NCBI GenBank assembly: GCA_013178305.1 | Contig: JABLXB010000004.1 | Span: forward strand, 62,001 to 126,000 | Source of the DNA: Bacillota bacterium | Lineage (GTDB): Bacteria > Bacillota > Sulfobacillia > JABLXB01 | DNA: 64,000 nt | Reading direction: 5' to 3' | Part shown: piece by piece, positions 55,246 through 61,974 of the stretch | Numbering within the stretch: position 1 is the stretch's first letter | Layout of the letters: each line of letters starts with the position of its first letter | Position numbers and translations under genes: made by a program | Notes under the pieces: model-generated | Database searches by the model: none | The model's input: only the letters and a program-made list of their open reading frames with translations | What the model was told of the DNA's origin: nothing

Positions 55246-55488
55246 CTATCCCCCGGACGGTGGCGATATCACAACCATCTCCTCGCCATCGGCGGGGACA
55301 TAATCCCTATCACGGCGGGTTCCGCCGGAGAACGCGTACATCACGAGGCTCCGGTTCACTCCGATCTGGTCGAGTATCTGGTTTATCGACGCGCTGGCAT
55401 CAACCTCGACCTCCACCCGCTCCTTCCCCCCCGGGAAGAACTCGCGACCGTGGCCGTGCACCAGCAGGGTCACCTTCTTGACACCCAT
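55246..55488 (-). CDS. MoaD/ThiS-like sulfur carrier
   Basis: 80 residues from the ATG at 55488 behind GGAGGG. The ubiquitin-like fold is small but clear (VEVEVDASASINQILDQIGV, LVMYAFSGG), ending EEMVVISPPSGG with the diglycine tail needed for thiocarboxylate formation. It is the last gene of the AOR operon, consistent with a dedicated role in making the sulfur-rich tungstopterin of AOR. A second MoaD-like protein lies at 41.5 kb. Confidence 0.85.
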   Translation of the reverse strand: MGVKKVTLLVHGHGREFFPGGKERVEVEVDASASINQILDQIGVNRSLVMYAFSGGTRRDRDYVPADGEEMVVISPPSGG

Positions 55489-55570
55489 GTTCTCAACCAC
55501 CCTCCGGGGTCACCGGCTACAGCCGTCCCTCAGTTGGTCCGCGGCCGGCAACAGCCTGCCCAACGCGAGC

Positions 55571-57418
55571 CTACAGCCCCAGAGTCTGAGCCACGTAGTC
55601 CAGGCCCAGCTCCCGCAGCTTCGCTCCGGTCGGGATGCCGTTCTTGTCCCAGCCCCTCAGGCTGTAATAGTCGTCGAGGAGCCAGTTTACCGTGTCCAGC
55701 GTCAGGCCCTTACCCTGAGCGGGGCCGGTCGGAACCTTCTCCTCGTACCACCTGGGGGGCGGGTAGTCGTACGCCCTGCCGAATCCTTTGATCTCCCGGA
55801 TGCTGTACGACCTGGTCAGGTTCCAGATCCTCTCGCTTATTCCGAGGAGCTCTTCCCAGGTGTAGTTCATGCCGGTCACGATCGGGAAGATCTGGGCGTA
55901 GTTATCGAGCTCGAACCCGATCTCCACCCAAGGCAGCCTGCACAGCCCGAGGGTGTCGAAAAGCGGCCTGATATGCTGGAGCTCGATGACCCTCTTGGCC
56001 TTGCCCTCCAGCTTATCGCGGCCGACCTGCACGTCGTAGGTGATGGCCCACGCCCTGTTGTGGTGCGCGCCGACGTCGGCGGTCATAAACGCAAGCGCCA
56101 TCGCCGGGGCATACCGCGGTTCATACGCGCTCACTTCGAGTCCCTTCACCTGGATGGCAAACTTCTCGGAGCCCTTGCCGAGTCTCTTCGCCGCCTCCCT
56201 GGTGCCCTCTGCGAGGAGGTCGCCGATGCCCTCGCGTTTCGCGATTTTCTCGAGCAGATAGATTCCGGCGTCAACGTCACCCCACTCGAGCTTCCGACCG
56301 GCCATCTCCTCCGTGATGATCCCTTTCTCGAAGCACTCCAGCGCGAACGCCAGGACACTGCCGCCGGAGATGGTGTCGATCCCGAGCTCGTCGGCCACAT
56401 AGTTGAGGTGTGCAACCTCCTCGATCTTACCGACGAGGAGGTTCCCCCCCATCATACCAATTGTCTCGTACTCGGGGCCTTCAACGTAGACTTCACCTTT
56501 CGTGGTCTTCGCCTTGGAATATTTCCCGCAAGGAGTCGGGCAGTTGAAACAGCCCTTGTGAGTGATGAGGATATTGTCCAGAATTGCCTGCCCGTTGATG
56601 CTCTTGTGACCCTCGAAGTATCCGGTCCAGAAGTTCTTCGTCGGGAACGAGCCAACCTCGTTAACCCAGTCGGTCACGCCGGCTGTTCCCTGCGGGGTCC
56701 AATCCTTGAACCCGGGTTTCGAGAAGCAGCTCGCGAACATGGCCTTACCCTTTTCGAAAACTTTGACCGGGTCTGCGAGCGGTATCCCCTTCGTCCCCTT
56801 GACCGCGATGGCCTTGAGCTTCTTGGACCCAACCACCGTGCCAACTCCGGCTCGACCCGCCTGGCGGCCGAAGTCGTGCGAGATGATCGCGTATTTCACG
56901 AGCTTCTCAGCGGCGGGTCCGATCGTCGCGATCTGGAACTCCTCGCCGAGATCCTTCTTCAGCATCGTCTCGGTCTCGATGCAGCCCTTGCCCCAGTACC
57001 TGGAGGCATCGCGCAGTTCGACCTTGTCGTCCTCTATGACAAGCATCGACGGTTTCGCGGCGATACCCTCGATAATGACGGCGTCGTAGCCGGCGTACTT
57101 GAGCTCGGGGGCCAGGTGACCACCGACGTTGCTGTCGCCGTACCCACCGCTTGCCGGCGACTTCGCGCCGAATTCGAGCTTCCCTGACGACGGGAGGAAA
57201 ATGCCCGCCAGTGGCCCGGACGCCATCACGACTTTGTTATCGGGCCCGAGCGGATCGGCGCCCGGCTTTACCTCGTCCCAGAGGATCTTCGCCACGAATC
57301 CCCTGCCGCCGAGGTATTCGCGAGCCATCTTCTCCGGGGTCGGCTCCTTCTTGACCTGGCCGGTGCCGAGATTCACGCGGAGGATTGTCCCCCCGTAGCC
57401 GTAAAGCTTGCCACTCAT
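55571..57418 (-). CDS. Aldehyde:ferredoxin oxidoreductase (AOR)
   Basis: 615 residues, normal AOR length. The start YGGTILRVNLGTGQVKKEP, the tungstopterin-domain stretch GGRGFVAKILWDEV and the metal-site region GRQAGRAGVGTVVGSKKLKA are typical. The cluster cysteines read CFNCPTPC (about 288-295), with the last ligand in DTLGLCRLP (about 491-499). AOR oxidises aldehydes to acids and passes electrons to ferredoxin. Its ATG overlaps the ferredoxin stop (ATGA), giving a direct electron-acceptor partner. Confidence 0.93.
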   Translation of the reverse strand: MSGKLYGYGGTILRVNLGTGQVKKEPTPEKMAREYLGGRGFVAKILWDEVKPGADPLGPDNKVVMASGPLAGIFLPSSGKLEFGAKSPASGGYGDSNVGGHLAPELKYAGYDAVIIEGIAAKPSMLVIEDDKVELRDASRYWGKGCIETETMLKKDLGEEFQIATIGPAAEKLVKYAIISHDFGRQAGRAGVGTVVGSKKLKAIAVKGTKGIPLADPVKVFEKGKAMFASCFSKPGFKDWTPQGTAGVTDWVNEVGSFPTKNFWTGYFEGHKSINGQAILDNILITHKGCFNCPTPCGKYSKAKTTKGEVYVEGPEYETIGMMGGNLLVGKIEEVAHLNYVADELGIDTISGGSVLAFALECFEKGIITEEMAGRKLEWGDVDAGIYLLEKIAKREGIGDLLAEGTREAAKRLGKGSEKFAIQVKGLEVSAYEPRYAPAMALAFMTADVGAHHNRAWAITYDVQVGRDKLEGKAKRVIELQHIRPLFDTLGLCRLPWVEIGFELDNYAQIFPIVTGMNYTWEELLGISERIWNLTRSYSIREIKGFGRAYDYPPPRWYEEKVPTGPAQGKGLTLDTVNWLLDDYYSLRGWDKNGIPTGAKLRELGLDYVAQTLGL

Positions 57419-57816
57419 CTCTTGGGCACCTCCCCATCCGCGTCAAACAACGCATTAGTGGGACAATGCCTCAGGCAGTCGCCGCACAGGACGCACTTGA
57501 ACGGCGCTGGGAAGTCGGCATGGGTGAACATCACGTGCCTGGGGCAGGTCTCGACGCACAGCAGGCATCCGGTGCACTCGTCGGGTTCCACCCTGTAGTG
57601 CCCGTCCTCCTCCTTGATCGCTCCCACGGGACAGACGTTGAAGCATTCGCCACACTGATTGCAGTACTGGATCTCGTACTTCCCGGGGGCCGGGAAATGC
57701 CCCTTGATCCGCACCATGCCCTTCTTGGGATTGTTTTCATTGAAGTTCCTCAGCGCACAGACCAGTTCGCAGACGCGGCACCCCGAACACAGGTCGTTGT
57801 TGACGCCGATCTTCAA
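57415..57816 (-). CDS. Ferredoxin-type 4Fe-4S protein (AOR partner)
   Basis: 133 residues from a TTG at 57816 with GGAGG eight bases upstream; longer frames lack this. Four cysteine groups in CSGCRVCELVC, CNQCGECFNVCP, CTGCLLCVETCP and CVLCGDCLRHCP suggest about four [4Fe-4S] clusters. This resembles the polyferredoxin subunits seen with AOR and with hydrogenase-like complexes. It overlaps the AOR start by four bases, so it is the likely immediate electron carrier. It may also receive electrons from the dehydrogenase genes upstream. Confidence 0.88.
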   Translation of the reverse strand: MKIGVNNDLCSGCRVCELVCALRNFNENNPKKGMVRIKGHFPAPGKYEIQYCNQCGECFNVCPVGAIKEEDGHYRVEPDECTGCLLCVETCPRHVMFTHADFPAPFKCVLCGDCLRHCPTNALFDADGEVPKR

Positions 57817-57940
57817 GCCCTCCACCTCCACTGTGAGAGAATCGGCTGCCTGGCCTAACGCCGGGCAGGCGGTGAATGTAAGCGTGGCCGGGTAACCACG
57901 CCGGACAACCTTCGCTCTACAACAGCTCCACAACGCGCTT

Positions 57941-59098
57941 CTACACTACCGACGGCTCGCGGATCATCTCGCCCCGCTCGAACCTGCCCAGGTCCAGCAT
58001 GCTGATGTCGAGGCTGGTAGGCTTGTCGAGGATCGTCTCGGCCAGGAGCTTGCCGACCACCGGCGCCAGCATGAATCCGTGACCCGAGAACCCTACCGCC
58101 ATGTAAAACCCGTCGACCTGAGGCGTCTCGCCGAGAATCGGCTGGGCGTCCGGGCTAATCTCGTAAAGGCCCGACCACTGCCTCACGAGGCGGAGCTCAC
58201 CGAGGATGGGGAGGACCGGAAGGACGGTGTCCACCATCGTCTCGAGGAACTGCCATGTATGTCCGACGTCGTAGTCCTTGCGCTCATTCGGGTCGCCGTA
58301 CCCCATCACGAAGCTCCCATGAGGGGTCTGCTGGCAGTAGATGTGTTTCGAGAACGACATGACCATCGGGTCCTGGATCATCGAACACGGTTCGGTGACG
58401 AGTATGTGGTGCCTCTCCGGATAAACCGGGATGTCGACCCCGACCATCTCGCCGACCGGCTTGGCCCACGCGCCCGCGGCGTTGACCACCGCCTCGACGT
58501 CGTAATCCCCGCCGGTCGTGATGACCCGTGTCACCCTACCGTTCTTCACCCTGACGTCCTTGACCTCCACGAAACTCCGCACCTTGACGCCGAGGCGCTT
58601 AGCCGCGCGAGCGTATGCCCACGTGGTGTGGTGCGGGTTGCAGTGGCCGTCCTTGGTACAATACGTCGCACCCAGCATCCCGTCCGTGCGGAGGTGCGGC
58701 ACAGTCTCCCTCGCCTCTTCGGGGCTAAGCAGCTTCGATGGGATACCGAGGCTGTTCTGCAGTTTAACGTTCTTCTTGAACTGCTCCCATTCCTTTTCGG
58801 TATGGGCCAGAATTAAATATCCTTTCTGCTTGAATTCGATGTCGTACTCGTAGCCGAGCTCCTCGTTGAGGTGTTCGAACATGTTGATGCTCTCGAGCGC
58901 GAGGCGGCAGTTCATCTCGGTGCCCCACTGGCACCGCACGCCGGCGCCGCACCGGCCCGTGGAACCGCCGGCGAGGTAGCCCTTGTCGAACACGACCACA
59001 TCCGTACAGCCCTGTTTCGCCAGGTTATACGCGATCGCACAACCGATGACTCCGCCACCGATGACCGCTACCTTGGCAGTACTACTCACCGTCTTCAC
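57941..59098 (-). CDS. FAD-dependent amine/imino-acid oxidoreductase, DAO family
   Basis: 385 residues. N-terminal Rossmann FAD motif VAVIGGGVIGCAIAYNLAKQG (GxGxxG), a G-S-T-G loop, and C-terminal VGFSGHGFMLAPVVGKLLAE, the DAO signature. It matches the beta/SoxB-type catalytic subunit of sarcosine oxidase, proline dehydrogenase and related heteromeric enzymes. It is flanked by BFD, 4Fe-4S and second-FAD genes, so it is the substrate-oxidising subunit. The electron path via iron-sulfur proteins suggests a dehydrogenase rather than an oxygen-using oxidase. Substrate unknown. Confidence 0.88.
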   Translation of the reverse strand: MKTVSSTAKVAVIGGGVIGCAIAYNLAKQGCTDVVVFDKGYLAGGSTGRCGAGVRCQWGTEMNCRLALESINMFEHLNEELGYEYDIEFKQKGYLILAHTEKEWEQFKKNVKLQNSLGIPSKLLSPEEARETVPHLRTDGMLGATYCTKDGHCNPHHTTWAYARAAKRLGVKVRSFVEVKDVRVKNGRVTRVITTGGDYDVEAVVNAAGAWAKPVGEMVGVDIPVYPERHHILVTEPCSMIQDPMVMSFSKHIYCQQTPHGSFVMGYGDPNERKDYDVGHTWQFLETMVDTVLPVLPILGELRLVRQWSGLYEISPDAQPILGETPQVDGFYMAVGFSGHGFMLAPVVGKLLAETILDKPTSLDISMLDLGRFERGEMIREPSVV

Positions 59099-59360
59099 CC
59101 CTGGCGATCACACCAAGCTTCACCGGCTTGGTGGGCGGCCTGAATGTGGGCAACTCCACAGACCCAACGTCCTTGCCGAGGTATCTGGCGATCTCCTGGG
59201 CCAGGAGCGGCCTGCACGTCTTACCCTGGCAGGGCCCCATTCCACAGCGACATATTCGCTTTATCTCATCCATAGTGTGAAGGCCCTGGTCGAGCAGCTC
59301 GCGCACCTTCTTCAGGGTTACGTCCTCACACCTGCAGATTATGACCTTTTCCTCGTCCAT
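59082..59360 (-). CDS. BFD-like [2Fe-2S] protein (small dehydrogenase subunit)
   Basis: 92 residues from the ATG at 59360, behind GAAGGGGGG; the longer frame is another gene's shadow. Cysteines in VIICRCEDVTLKK and RICRCGMGPCQGKTCRP fit a BFD-like [2Fe-2S] domain. Its start overlaps the 4Fe-4S subunit stop (TGATG). Similar subunits occur in heterotetrameric proline and amine dehydrogenases, where they link FAD subunits to iron-sulfur electron transfer. Confidence 0.85.
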   Translation of the reverse strand: MDEEKVIICRCEDVTLKKVRELLDQGLHTMDEIKRICRCGMGPCQGKTCRPLLAQEIARYLGKDVGSVELPTFRPPTKPVKLGVIARGEDGE

Positions 59361-59857
59361 CAGGCGGCCCCCCTTCCGAGCGTTATGTGCCTGACGTCGT
59401 GGCAGAACGCCTTCGGGAACGCCACCCACACAACCGGTGTGGCCGTATTGTCCTTGCCTTTCACGACGCGCAAAACCCGCCCCTGGCAGATCTCGCGGCC
59501 CTCGCGGTCGTGACACGTCACCGTCTCCCCTTGACTGGGGAGCGGGACGAACTCGTACGGCAACTTCACCAGCGCTTCGTCGGTGGAGAATGTTTCATCA
59601 ACAACGAACACCGCCAGGCCCGGGCACGACGCGACGCATATCCCGCAGCCATTGCATTTCTCCTGGTCCACTATCGGGAGGTCGTTTATGTCCTCGAACG
59701 GCTGGACGGCTCCCTGCTTGCACGCGGCATAGCACGGGTCGCAGGGGATCTCCTGGAAGCACTCGAACACCGCGTACGGCCCTTTCTTCCGCCTCTCCTC
59801 GGGCGGTAACGTCTTTGAGAGGTCCACCCTGGTGGGGACCCCGGTTTCCTCGAGCAT
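59360..59857 (-). CDS. 4Fe-4S ferredoxin-like dehydrogenase subunit
   Basis: 165 residues. CFQEIPCDPCYAACKQGAV and KCNGCGICVASCPGLAV give one or two [4Fe-4S] clusters. The C-terminal third (LPSQGETVTCHDREGREI and VVKGKDNTATPVVWVAFPK) has no motif I recognise. The gene overlaps both neighbours and so is part of one complex. It resembles the gamma/iron-sulfur subunit of dye-linked L-proline-type dehydrogenases. Confidence 0.82.
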   Translation of the reverse strand: MLEETGVPTRVDLSKTLPPEERRKKGPYAVFECFQEIPCDPCYAACKQGAVQPFEDINDLPIVDQEKCNGCGICVASCPGLAVFVVDETFSTDEALVKLPYEFVPLPSQGETVTCHDREGREICQGRVLRVVKGKDNTATPVVWVAFPKAFCHDVRHITLGRGAA

Positions 59858-60939
59858 TACGACGCCACCCCCTTCAGAGCCGACAAACCCTTCCTGATCT
59901 TCTCACCCGTCGGGCCCGCGCGAAGCTCATCAAGTTCGCGCTGTGCCTGCGCCTTCTTCTGCTCGTAGTCAGGGCAGTATCCTAGCGTGGCGGCAGCCGC
60001 GTAACCGGCAAGTCGCCCGCCGACCATCGCGCTCGACGCCTCCTCGACCCCTCCCGCATCCCCCGCGACGAAGATCCCCTTGACGGTGGTCTCAAGGTTC
60101 TCGTCGTGCAGCGCCACGTGGCCACCCAGTTCGGAAACGTATTTCATCTTGCAGCCCGCCATCCACAGTAGCTCCGTGAGTGGCGACAGTCCGACTGCGA
60201 GGCACATCACGTCGCATTCGATGTACCTCTCGGTCCCCGCAATGCCCTTCCAGTCAGGGCCGAGCTTCCATATGGTCGCGCCCTCGAGGAACTCCTTGCC
60301 GTGCGCCTCTTTCACCGAATGGGAGGCGAGTATCGGCACCCCCATCCTGCGGATCTTCGAGGCGTGCACCGCGTACCCGCCTATCCTGGGCAAGGCCTCG
60401 ACCACGGCCGCGACTTTCACCCCCGCCTGCATGAGCTGGTAGCTCACGATCAGGCCGATGTTGCCGGCCCCGACCATGAGCACGCACTTGCCGGGCTCGA
60501 TCCCGTGCACGTTCATGAGGGTTTGAACAGCGCCGGCCCCGTATATGCCGGGCAGGTCGTTGTTCGGAAACGCCAGCATCTTCTCGGAGGCCCCGGTCAC
60601 GACGACGAGGCGTTGTGTCTTGAGCTTCAGGAACCTCTCGTTCTGTTCGAGGGTTATGATGTTGTCTGGATAATACCCGAGGGCCGTGCACTCGAGCATG
60701 ACGTCGATCTTCGGGTGGCTCATCACCTTCTCTCCGAGGTCACGCCCGATCACGATGCCCCTCGTGCCCGCGGACTGCTTCTGCGACCCGAAAAACTTGT
60801 GGGTCTGCTTGATGAGCTGCCCGCCGAGCCTGTCCTCCCGGTCGATGAGCGTAACCTGGGCGCCGCACGACGCCGCCGCGAGCGCCGCGCAAAGCCCCGC
60901 CGGTCCCGCGCCGATCACCGCAATCTCCGTCTGCCTCAT
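59857..60939 (-). CDS. NAD(P)/FAD-binding dehydrogenase subunit
   Basis: 360 residues from the ATG at 60939, overlapping the upstream stop. Two dinucleotide motifs are visible: EIAVIGAGPAGLCAALAAAS (FAD) and KCVLMVGAGNIGLIVSYQL (about residue 175). The C-terminal GIFVAGDAGGVEEASSAMVG is typical of thioredoxin-reductase-like and SoxA/HcnB-type flavoproteins. It would accept electrons from the DAO-type FAD subunit. No SoxA glycine-cleavage C-terminus is seen. Confidence 0.88.
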   Translation of the reverse strand: MRQTEIAVIGAGPAGLCAALAAASCGAQVTLIDREDRLGGQLIKQTHKFFGSQKQSAGTRGIVIGRDLGEKVMSHPKIDVMLECTALGYYPDNIITLEQNERFLKLKTQRLVVVTGASEKMLAFPNNDLPGIYGAGAVQTLMNVHGIEPGKCVLMVGAGNIGLIVSYQLMQAGVKVAAVVEALPRIGGYAVHASKIRRMGVPILASHSVKEAHGKEFLEGATIWKLGPDWKGIAGTERYIECDVMCLAVGLSPLTELLWMAGCKMKYVSELGGHVALHDENLETTVKGIFVAGDAGGVEEASSAMVGGRLAGYAAAATLGYCPDYEQKKAQAQRELDELRAGPTGEKIRKGLSALKGVAS

Positions 60940-61262
60940 TTCTTCACACCACCCACCGGCGGCAGGACGCCCTTGCCTTTTTGCTGCGTCACCCGCATCC
61001 CGTCGCGGACTTTCTCCACACACACCCGCACGTTGGGTATGCCATCCACCTCCATAAGACACGACGAGCAGTTGCCTATGGCGCAGAAGAATCCCCTGGG
61101 CCTGTGCATCTCGGCGCTCAGCCGGAGCACCCTCACGCCGGCCGCGTGGAGCGCGGCGGCTATGGGCTCGCCCTCGTAGGCGTCGATGGGCTTGCCCTCG
61201 TAGTAGATCGTCACCTTCTTCCGTTCCGGAAACGTCAGAATCGGATGGTCCTTGATCCTCAA
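60936..61262 (-). CDS. [2Fe-2S] ferredoxin-like subunit
   Basis: 108 residues from a TTG at 61262, behind GAGGGG, only five bases after the GntR stop. It has a plant-type ferredoxin-like start (VTIYYEGKPIDAYEGEPIA) with the cluster cysteines in FFCAIGNCSSCLMEV, then VRVCVEKV. This is the third iron-sulfur protein of the complex. Comparable genes accompany heterotetrameric dehydrogenases. It overlaps the FAD subunit start. Confidence 0.85.
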   Translation of the reverse strand: MRIKDHPILTFPERKKVTIYYEGKPIDAYEGEPIAAALHAAGVRVLRLSAEMHRPRGFFCAIGNCSSCLMEVDGIPNVRVCVEKVRDGMRVTQQKGKGVLPPVGGVKK

Positions 61263-61266
61263 GCTC

Positions 61267-61974
61267 TCACCCCTCGCCGTTACTTTCACCCGCCTGCACG
61301 ATCGCTTCCCTGAGCCCGCGCAGGTGCTCGTCCATCGCCCCGGCCGCCGCCTCCGCGTCACGGCTCGCTATCGCCTGGAGGATTCGCTTGTGCTCGGCGC
61401 AAAGCGCTTCCCATTTCTGCCGGTTGAGATGCGCCTGCTGGTGGTACTCCCTGAGGAGGTTCATCTGCATCTTGACGAGTTCGTGGAGCACGAAGTTGTG
61501 CGTCGCCCGCGCGATTGAAAGGTGGAAGTCGAGGTCCCTGTCCTCACCGGGTTCGGGGTCGCTGGCGCTGTAGAATGACTCAATGACCTGGGACATGTTG
61601 CCGATGTCCTCTTCGGTGGCGCGCTGGGCGGCGAGCCGGGCCACTGTGACCTCCAGCGCCATTCTGGCCTCCGCAATGTCGAGGAGCACGGATTTCTCCA
61701 GCGCATACAGCGTGGTCCCATCCTGGAACAGAACAGGGGGCGTCACCTCTCGAAGGAACCGGCCGCCTCCGGGCCTGCTCTCGATCAGGCCCCTCACCTC
61801 GAGCACGCGGAACGCTTCGCGGAGTATCCCCCTGCTGACTCCAAGCTGTTTCTCGAGCTCGCGCTCCGACGGAAACCGCTGGCCGGGGCTTACTCCCCCG
61901 TTTTTGACGAACTCCACCAGCTGTTCGACGACCGACTGGTAGAGCCTCTGTTTTTCCACTCTGAAAAACGGCAT
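61267..61974 (-). CDS. FCD-domain GntR regulator of the dehydrogenase/AOR operon
   Basis: 235 residues. Winged helix (GVSPGQRFPSERELEKQLGVSR, GILREAFRVLEVRGLIE split by a short turn) and an FCD domain with DLDFHLSIARATHNFVLHE and LCAEHKRILQAIASRD. It is the first gene of a nine-gene unit (regulator, five dehydrogenase subunits, ferredoxin, AOR, MoaD-like), so it probably controls it and senses the amine or aldehyde substrate. Confidence 0.87.
   Translation of the reverse strand: MPFFRVEKQRLYQSVVEQLVEFVKNGGVSPGQRFPSERELEKQLGVSRGILREAFRVLEVRGLIESRPGGGRFLREVTPPVLFQDGTTLYALEKSVLLDIAEARMALEVTVARLAAQRATEEDIGNMSQVIESFYSASDPEPGEDRDLDFHLSIARATHNFVLHELVKMQMNLLREYHQQAHLNRQKWEALCAEHKRILQAIASRDAEAAAGAMDEHLRGLREAIVQAGESNGEG

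Follow-up and report, generated by a model that had tools for sequence, protein, structure and literature searches.

The closest described systems come from two fields. The proline dehydrogenase PDH1 of Thermococcales (Pyrococcus horikoshii PH1363/PH1364, PDB 1y56) and the sarcosine oxidase SoxBDAG (PDB 2gag, 1vrq) both place a DAO-family catalytic flavin subunit beside a second flavin and iron-sulfur parts. Among the aldehyde:ferredoxin oxidoreductases (AORs), formaldehyde:ferredoxin oxidoreductase (FOR) of Pyrococcus furiosus (PDB 1b25/1b4n) is described as a homotetramer with its lowest Km for glutaric dialdehyde and with glutarate in the crystal, and guesses at its natural substrate rest on this glutarate and the kinetics (PMC12096430). 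A 2026 classification of tungsten oxidoreductases (WORs) recognised 92 clades, only five of them with a defined physiological role, and described WorX as optional beside WorL and WorS in class II (PMC13328260). Here we analysed a 64,000-nucleotide stretch of a Bacillota genome (GCA_013178305.1, contig JABLXB010000004.1, positions 62,001 to 126,000; the window), in which nine tightly packed minus-strand genes (61974-55246), from a regulator through to a ThiS/MoaD-like protein, join a PDH1-like flavin/iron-sulfur complex to a FOR-like AOR. We propose that the products of this operon probably oxidise L-proline anaerobically, in two steps, to L-glutamate, with substrates, metal, electron carriers and complex assembly all deduced from sequence.

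The position directly behind the DAO gene carries most weight in this proposal. A search of 398 genomes across the phylum with the DAO subunit matched 95, at about 50-62% identity in most of them, and about 80 loci were read. The five-gene core Fer2-FAD-4Fe-4S-BFD-DAO was present in nearly all DAO loci read and is widespread in Bacillota. Directly after DAO, a ferredoxin-AOR pair was found in 18 of 82 loci from about 10 families, often together with a small GG protein, an aldehyde dehydrogenase (ALDH)-family gene in 10, and neither AOR nor ALDH in 54. Since the core recurs in nearly all loci and ferredoxin-AOR follows it in 18 of the 82, the arrangement is not a product of chance. Three of the ten DAO-adjacent ALDH-family genes (L099, L075, L095) were compared with NCBIfam models, and all three exceeded the cut-off of TIGR01236 or TIGR01237, the models for L-glutamate gamma-semialdehyde dehydrogenase, as did an ALDH-family gene near the complex, outside this slot, at another locus (L094). 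This enzyme, the 1-pyrroline-5-carboxylate (P5C) dehydrogenase, is NAD-linked, whereas the AOR is ferredoxin-linked and belongs to an unrelated protein family; either one can fill the slot behind the DAO complex, and we propose the same reaction for both. That different aldehyde-oxidising enzymes stand in one place next to the same dehydrogenase argues more strongly than anything else for a common reaction, and suggests that a tungsten-type AOR in this slot does the job of P5C dehydrogenase, converting glutamate semialdehyde into glutamate.

A quick tree of the DAO subunits showed that the AOR-linked and P5C dehydrogenase-linked states interleave, with at least five changes of the former and at least three of the latter on starred branches. 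One clade (support 95) placed the P5C dehydrogenase-linked L095 and L116 as sister to L082 and L088, which carry FOR-like AORs, and to L133, which has in the same slot an AOR of a second and distant lineage (second-type WOR). Two unrelated AOR lineages have been recruited to the slot behind the DAO complex. Ferredoxin and AOR also follow the core in Desulforamulus aeronauticus and Acidaminobacter hydrogenoformans, the four-cluster ferredoxin gene precedes the AOR in nearly all relatives, and GG-tailed WorX-type homologues lie downstream of it in many. An earlier sequence-only reading of the window had seen nine coupled genes uniting an imino-acid dehydrogenase with an aldehyde oxidoreductase in a single operon; gene content and tight packing, with no terminator-like site between genes, bear this out, and the gene order it would look for in other anaerobes does recur as core plus ferredoxin-AOR in the 18 loci and the named genomes.

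By sequence, the predicted five-gene complex is of the proline-dehydrogenase type. Among solved structures PDH1 beta from P. horikoshii (1y56_B) matched the DAO subunit best, with 286 bits and 37% identity, compared with 173 bits for sarcosine oxidase beta, and the subunit reached 220 bits with the soxB model against a cut-off of 529. The Arg/Met/His/Trp residues are shared with PDH1. Where sarcosine oxidase carries Lys in GHGF(K/M), the window DAO and PDH1 have Met, as do the AOR-linked and P5C dehydrogenase-linked DAO proteins, with one AOR-linked exception (Gln). The second flavin subunit and the small iron-sulfur and BFD-type parts also recall PDH1; the window differs from it in having five separate genes in a Bacillota host, followed by ferredoxin-AOR-WorX, and in a second flavin subunit that matches 1y56_A weakly. 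SoxBDAG resembles the complex in its DAO catalytic subunit, and the 2Fe-2S, second flavin and A3 domains of its alpha subunit are separate genes here, but the operon shows neither SoxD nor SoxG, and a domain search of all operon subunits for a folate-binding (GcvT) domain gave no match.

The neighbourhood of the complex points the same way. Genes for trans-4-hydroxy-L-proline dehydratase and its activase adjoin it at four loci (L082, L099, L100, L104) and proline racemase family genes at four (L068, L069, L094, L130); 2-oxoglutarate:ferredoxin oxidoreductase genes lie near it at three (L082, L088, L140), and PrdR-like regulators are among its neighbours. P5C is made by hydroxyproline dehydratase and by proline dehydrogenase and consumed by P5C dehydrogenase. 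Because these neighbouring enzymes make or use P5C, the shared intermediate is taken to be P5C/glutamate semialdehyde. The sequence-only reading had named the dye-linked heterotetrameric proline dehydrogenases as the closest architecture, in agreement with the PDH1 beta score, and had put forward a two-step route from amine to acid with sarcosine and formaldehyde as its example. The two steps stand, while sarcosine yields to proline as the probable substrate in view of the bit scores, the absent GHGF Lys and the P5C dehydrogenase, hydroxyproline dehydratase and racemase neighbours.

The AOR contains AFOR_N and AFOR_C domains, with the CxxCxxxC motif and the catalytic Glu/Tyr/His conserved. It scored higher with Pyrococcus FOR (517 bits) than with Pyrococcus AOR (434 bits), grouped with FOR in the AOR tree (split support 97) and was closest to FOR in predicted fold, FOR being its closest solved relative at 42% identity. 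FOR residues E308, Y416, H437, R481 and R492 are all conserved, the arginines as R484 and R494. Both arginines are kept throughout the FOR-like operon AORs, in each of the 80 nearest named-genome relatives, and in only one of the 18 AOR paralogues of the same genome (L059); Pyrococcus AOR and Aromatoleum AOR are without both. Arg481 and Arg492 reportedly bind the distal carboxylate of the glutarate in 1B4N. Glutamate is 2-aminoglutarate, and work on FOR from 1999 reportedly suggested amino-acid semialdehydes as its substrates. Where FOR is a homotetramer, the window AOR adjoins the gene of a four-cluster ferredoxin subunit, and its partner in the operon suggests a substrate. The position beside the AOR and the 16 Cys in four [4Fe-4S] motifs make this subunit WorS-type as defined for class II, and the gene content WorS-WorL-WorX is likewise that of class II. 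The account of class II (PMC13328260) describes no member linked to proline, a word absent from its main text. The window AOR is predicted to be a tungsten enzyme.

Some other AORs differ from that of the window in setting or in sequence. The host genome encodes a second FOR-like AOR (L059, G000:C1:581000-594000), 63% identical to that of the window, with its own ferredoxin and next to a sodium/solute symporter, with no dehydrogenase complex beside it. The operon AOR of family f58 (L110, L090, L111, L119, L120, L125, L092, L115, L138) has Thr for the third cluster Cys (CFACPMATGK) and Leu at the position of FOR Thr240, and may have a changed cluster or activity. At six Desulfobacterota loci (L192, L196, L198, L202, L205, L209) a FOR-like AOR and ferredoxin stand beside a different DAO-family gene, several of these loci also carrying MttB-like genes near the AOR, which suggests a different amine substrate for FOR-like AORs of the same clade.

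The host genome (3.37 Mb, 98% complete) was searched for P5C dehydrogenase of either type and for classical proline dehydrogenase (PF01619), and neither was found. It has just two ALDH-superfamily genes, both CoA-acylating, and about 19 AOR genes (20 matches, one gene matched twice), so that AORs seem to have replaced aldehyde dehydrogenases across the genome. Over the 398 genomes, with FOR-like AORs counted at E below 1e-170, the DAO complex was present in 34 of the 40 genomes with a FOR-like AOR and in 89 overall (hypergeometric P 3e-19). These 89 comprised 26 genomes with the AOR only, 30 with P5C dehydrogenase only, 8 with both and 25 with neither (Fisher p 0.005). AOR and P5C dehydrogenase thus avoid each other among genomes with the DAO complex, a result that is only indicative because the tests treat genomes as independent; the DAO tree is the better control. 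Strict mutual exclusion was rejected, as eight genomes carry both.

Further clusters of DAO and AOR genes occur in the host genome. L048 (G000:C1:594000-608000) and L049 (G000:C2:338000-351000) each combine a Fer2/FAD/Fd/DAO complex with an AOR; a DapA-family gene separates the DAO and AOR genes in both, and L049 has a proline racemase family gene as well. The two operons look like a D-hydroxyproline route, with an AOR in place of 2-oxoglutarate-semialdehyde dehydrogenase. A further DAO-AOR cluster (L050, G000:C1:77000-95000), judged by eye only, contains thiamine pyrophosphate-dependent dehydrogenase E1-like and ABC-transporter-like genes.

In the proposed pathway, the five-subunit complex would oxidise L-proline to P5C at the DAO subunit and pass the electrons via the iron-sulfur and second flavin subunits to an acceptor. 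P5C would open spontaneously to glutamate-gamma-semialdehyde, which the FOR-like tungsten AOR would then oxidise to glutamate, replacing the NAD-dependent P5C dehydrogenase. The low-potential electrons of the AOR would leave via the four-cluster ferredoxin subunit, probably to ferredoxin, and the last and first genes would supply a tungsten-cofactor maturation factor and a regulator. The proline/P5C couple lies at about -0.12 V, too positive to reduce ferredoxin, so only the aldehyde step can do this, and the earlier suggestion that all electrons are passed to ferredoxin is doubtful. In a rather improbable variant, flavin-based electron confurcation, the low-potential electrons of the AOR would travel via the four-cluster ferredoxin to join the high-potential ones from proline at the second flavin subunit and reduce NAD; if true, this would explain why the iron-sulfur-rich complex and the AOR stay together.

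Several observations weigh against the proline pathway. FOR-like AORs of Desulfobacterota and Chloroflexota outside this operon retain both FOR-type arginines, so the pair marks the AOR clade rather than proline use, and as a marker of proline use it was rejected. The 25 DAO-complex genomes with neither P5C dehydrogenase nor FOR-like AOR, and the eight with both, also count against it. The predicted DAO fold is tied between proline dehydrogenase (Z 47.8) and sarcosine oxidase (Z 48.4), and a BCCT transporter (L204, L215, L217) or an MttB-family methyltransferase (L204) adjoins some operons, betaine-type neighbours that leave room for N-methylated substrates. The complex might then demethylate an N-methyl amino acid (sarcosine, N-methylproline or a betaine product) and the AOR oxidise the released formaldehyde, for which its closest relative is named, to formate; the Desulfobacterota AORs beside another DAO and MttB-like genes would agree with this. 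We regard such a role as unlikely, because the PDH1-beta score is far above that of sarcosine oxidase, Met replaces the sarcosine-oxidase Lys, no operon subunit has a folate-binding domain, and P5C dehydrogenase occupies the AOR slot in relatives. Moreover, FOR prefers a C5 dialdehyde (PMC12096430), and proline betaine would lead back to proline anyway. It is quite improbable that the complex is instead a D-proline or D-hydroxyproline dehydrogenase yielding a 2-carboxylate imine, with the AOR acting further downstream, for example on 2-oxoglutarate semialdehyde. The DapA-family genes of L048 and L049 and the racemase family gene of L049 are what a D-hydroxyproline route predicts, and racemase family genes flank the window-type operons L068 and L130, but racemase and DapA-type genes are both absent from the window operon, its DAO differs from those of L048 and L049 in having PDH1-type residues, and P5C dehydrogenase in the slot implies P5C as product and hence L-proline as substrate.

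The presence of ProC without ProA in six operon-bearing genomes (the host G000, G281, G123, G049, G045 and G086) also counts against a purely oxidative role, since the AOR may run in reverse as well. Working mainly in that direction, it would use ferredoxin to reduce glutamate to the semialdehyde, from which ProC would yield proline, so that the operon would serve to make proline or to balance redox. That enzymes of this family reduce acids is plausible, given that PMC12727526 credits a tungsten-dependent aldehyde:ferredoxin oxidoreductase with the ethanol production of Clostridium autoethanogenum. Yet mainly reverse operation seems very improbable: it would leave the co-transcribed dehydrogenase complex and the exchange with a catabolic P5C dehydrogenase unexplained, and of the other operon genomes three have ProA as well as ProC and three lack both. 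The AOR could also be a general aldehyde detoxifier co-transcribed by happenstance, as the roughly 19 AOR genes of the host and the broad detoxifying range of many AORs (PMC13328260) might suggest, but we give this only a slim chance against a gene order shared by about 10 families, one slot filled from two AOR lineages and the strong co-occurrence.

Both halves of the proline operon belong to known families, and their combination and proposed role appear new, although on weak evidence, namely that in open-licence papers no report was found linking AOR/WOR or tungsten to proline dehydrogenase, hydroxyproline or P5C. For a bacterial FOR-like clade, the slot exchange with P5C dehydrogenase points to a specific substrate, glutamate-gamma-semialdehyde. 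If the proposal is true, proline catabolism gains a ferredoxin-linked, tungsten-dependent branch, which would explain how anaerobes without P5C dehydrogenase complete proline oxidation and would exhibit a genome where AORs appear to have supplanted aldehyde dehydrogenases.

Table 1. Genes of the proposed proline oxidation operon, in order of transcription; positions are those of the window.
Gene product	Position	Strand	Evidence
GntR/FCD-family transcriptional regulator, first gene	61267..61974	-	Pfam GntR 1.3e-15, FCD 1.9e-26
[2Fe-2S] subunit, Fer2_4, counterpart of the sarcosine oxidase alpha N-terminal domain	60936..61262	-	Fer2_4 4e-30; soxA positions 16-99
Second FAD subunit, Pyr_redox_2, counterpart of the middle part of sarcosine oxidase alpha and of PDH1 alpha	59857..60939	-	Pyr_redox_2 2e-32; soxA positions 169-496; 2gag_A, 1y56_A
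4Fe-4S electron-transfer subunit	59360..59857	-	Fer4 1.2e-6; order kept in nearly all related loci
BFD-like [2Fe-2S] subunit	59082..59360	-	SO_alpha_A3 3.1e-14, Fer2_BFD 7.8e-11
DAO/soxB-type FAD subunit, PDH1-beta type, proposed L-proline dehydrogenase	57941..59098	-	DAO 6.8e-85; 1y56_B 4.2e-84
Four-cluster ferredoxin, WorS-type	57415..57831, exact start uncertain	-	16 Cys, four CxxCxxCxxxC motifs; three Fer4 stretches
FOR-like AOR large subunit (WorL), proposed glutamate-gamma-semialdehyde:acceptor oxidoreductase	55571..57418	-	AFOR_N + AFOR_C; PDB 1b25 5.3e-154
ThiS/MoaD-like small protein, WorX type, probable cofactor-maturation factor	55246..55500	-	C-terminal GG; homologues after AOR

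Most neighbouring genes of the operon overlap by 1-17 bases; real gaps occur only between DAO and ferredoxin (about 110 bp) and between the AOR and the MoaD-like gene (about 70 bp), and no promoter- or terminator-like site was found on the minus strand in either gap. The first gene being a regulator, the other eight encode enzymes or maturation factors. The MoaD-like protein had no match in Pfam or NCBIfam at E 0.001, and its putative identity as a small carrier rests on the -GG tail, its position and its conservation in other loci. Open reading frames on the plus strand, such as one of 569 aa opposite the AOR, were set aside as chance occurrences. The Fer2_4 gene starts with TTG, the second Rossmann motif (GAGNIG) of the Pyr_redox_2 subunit is intact, and GntR genes also lie upstream of the operon at L171, L174 and L130.

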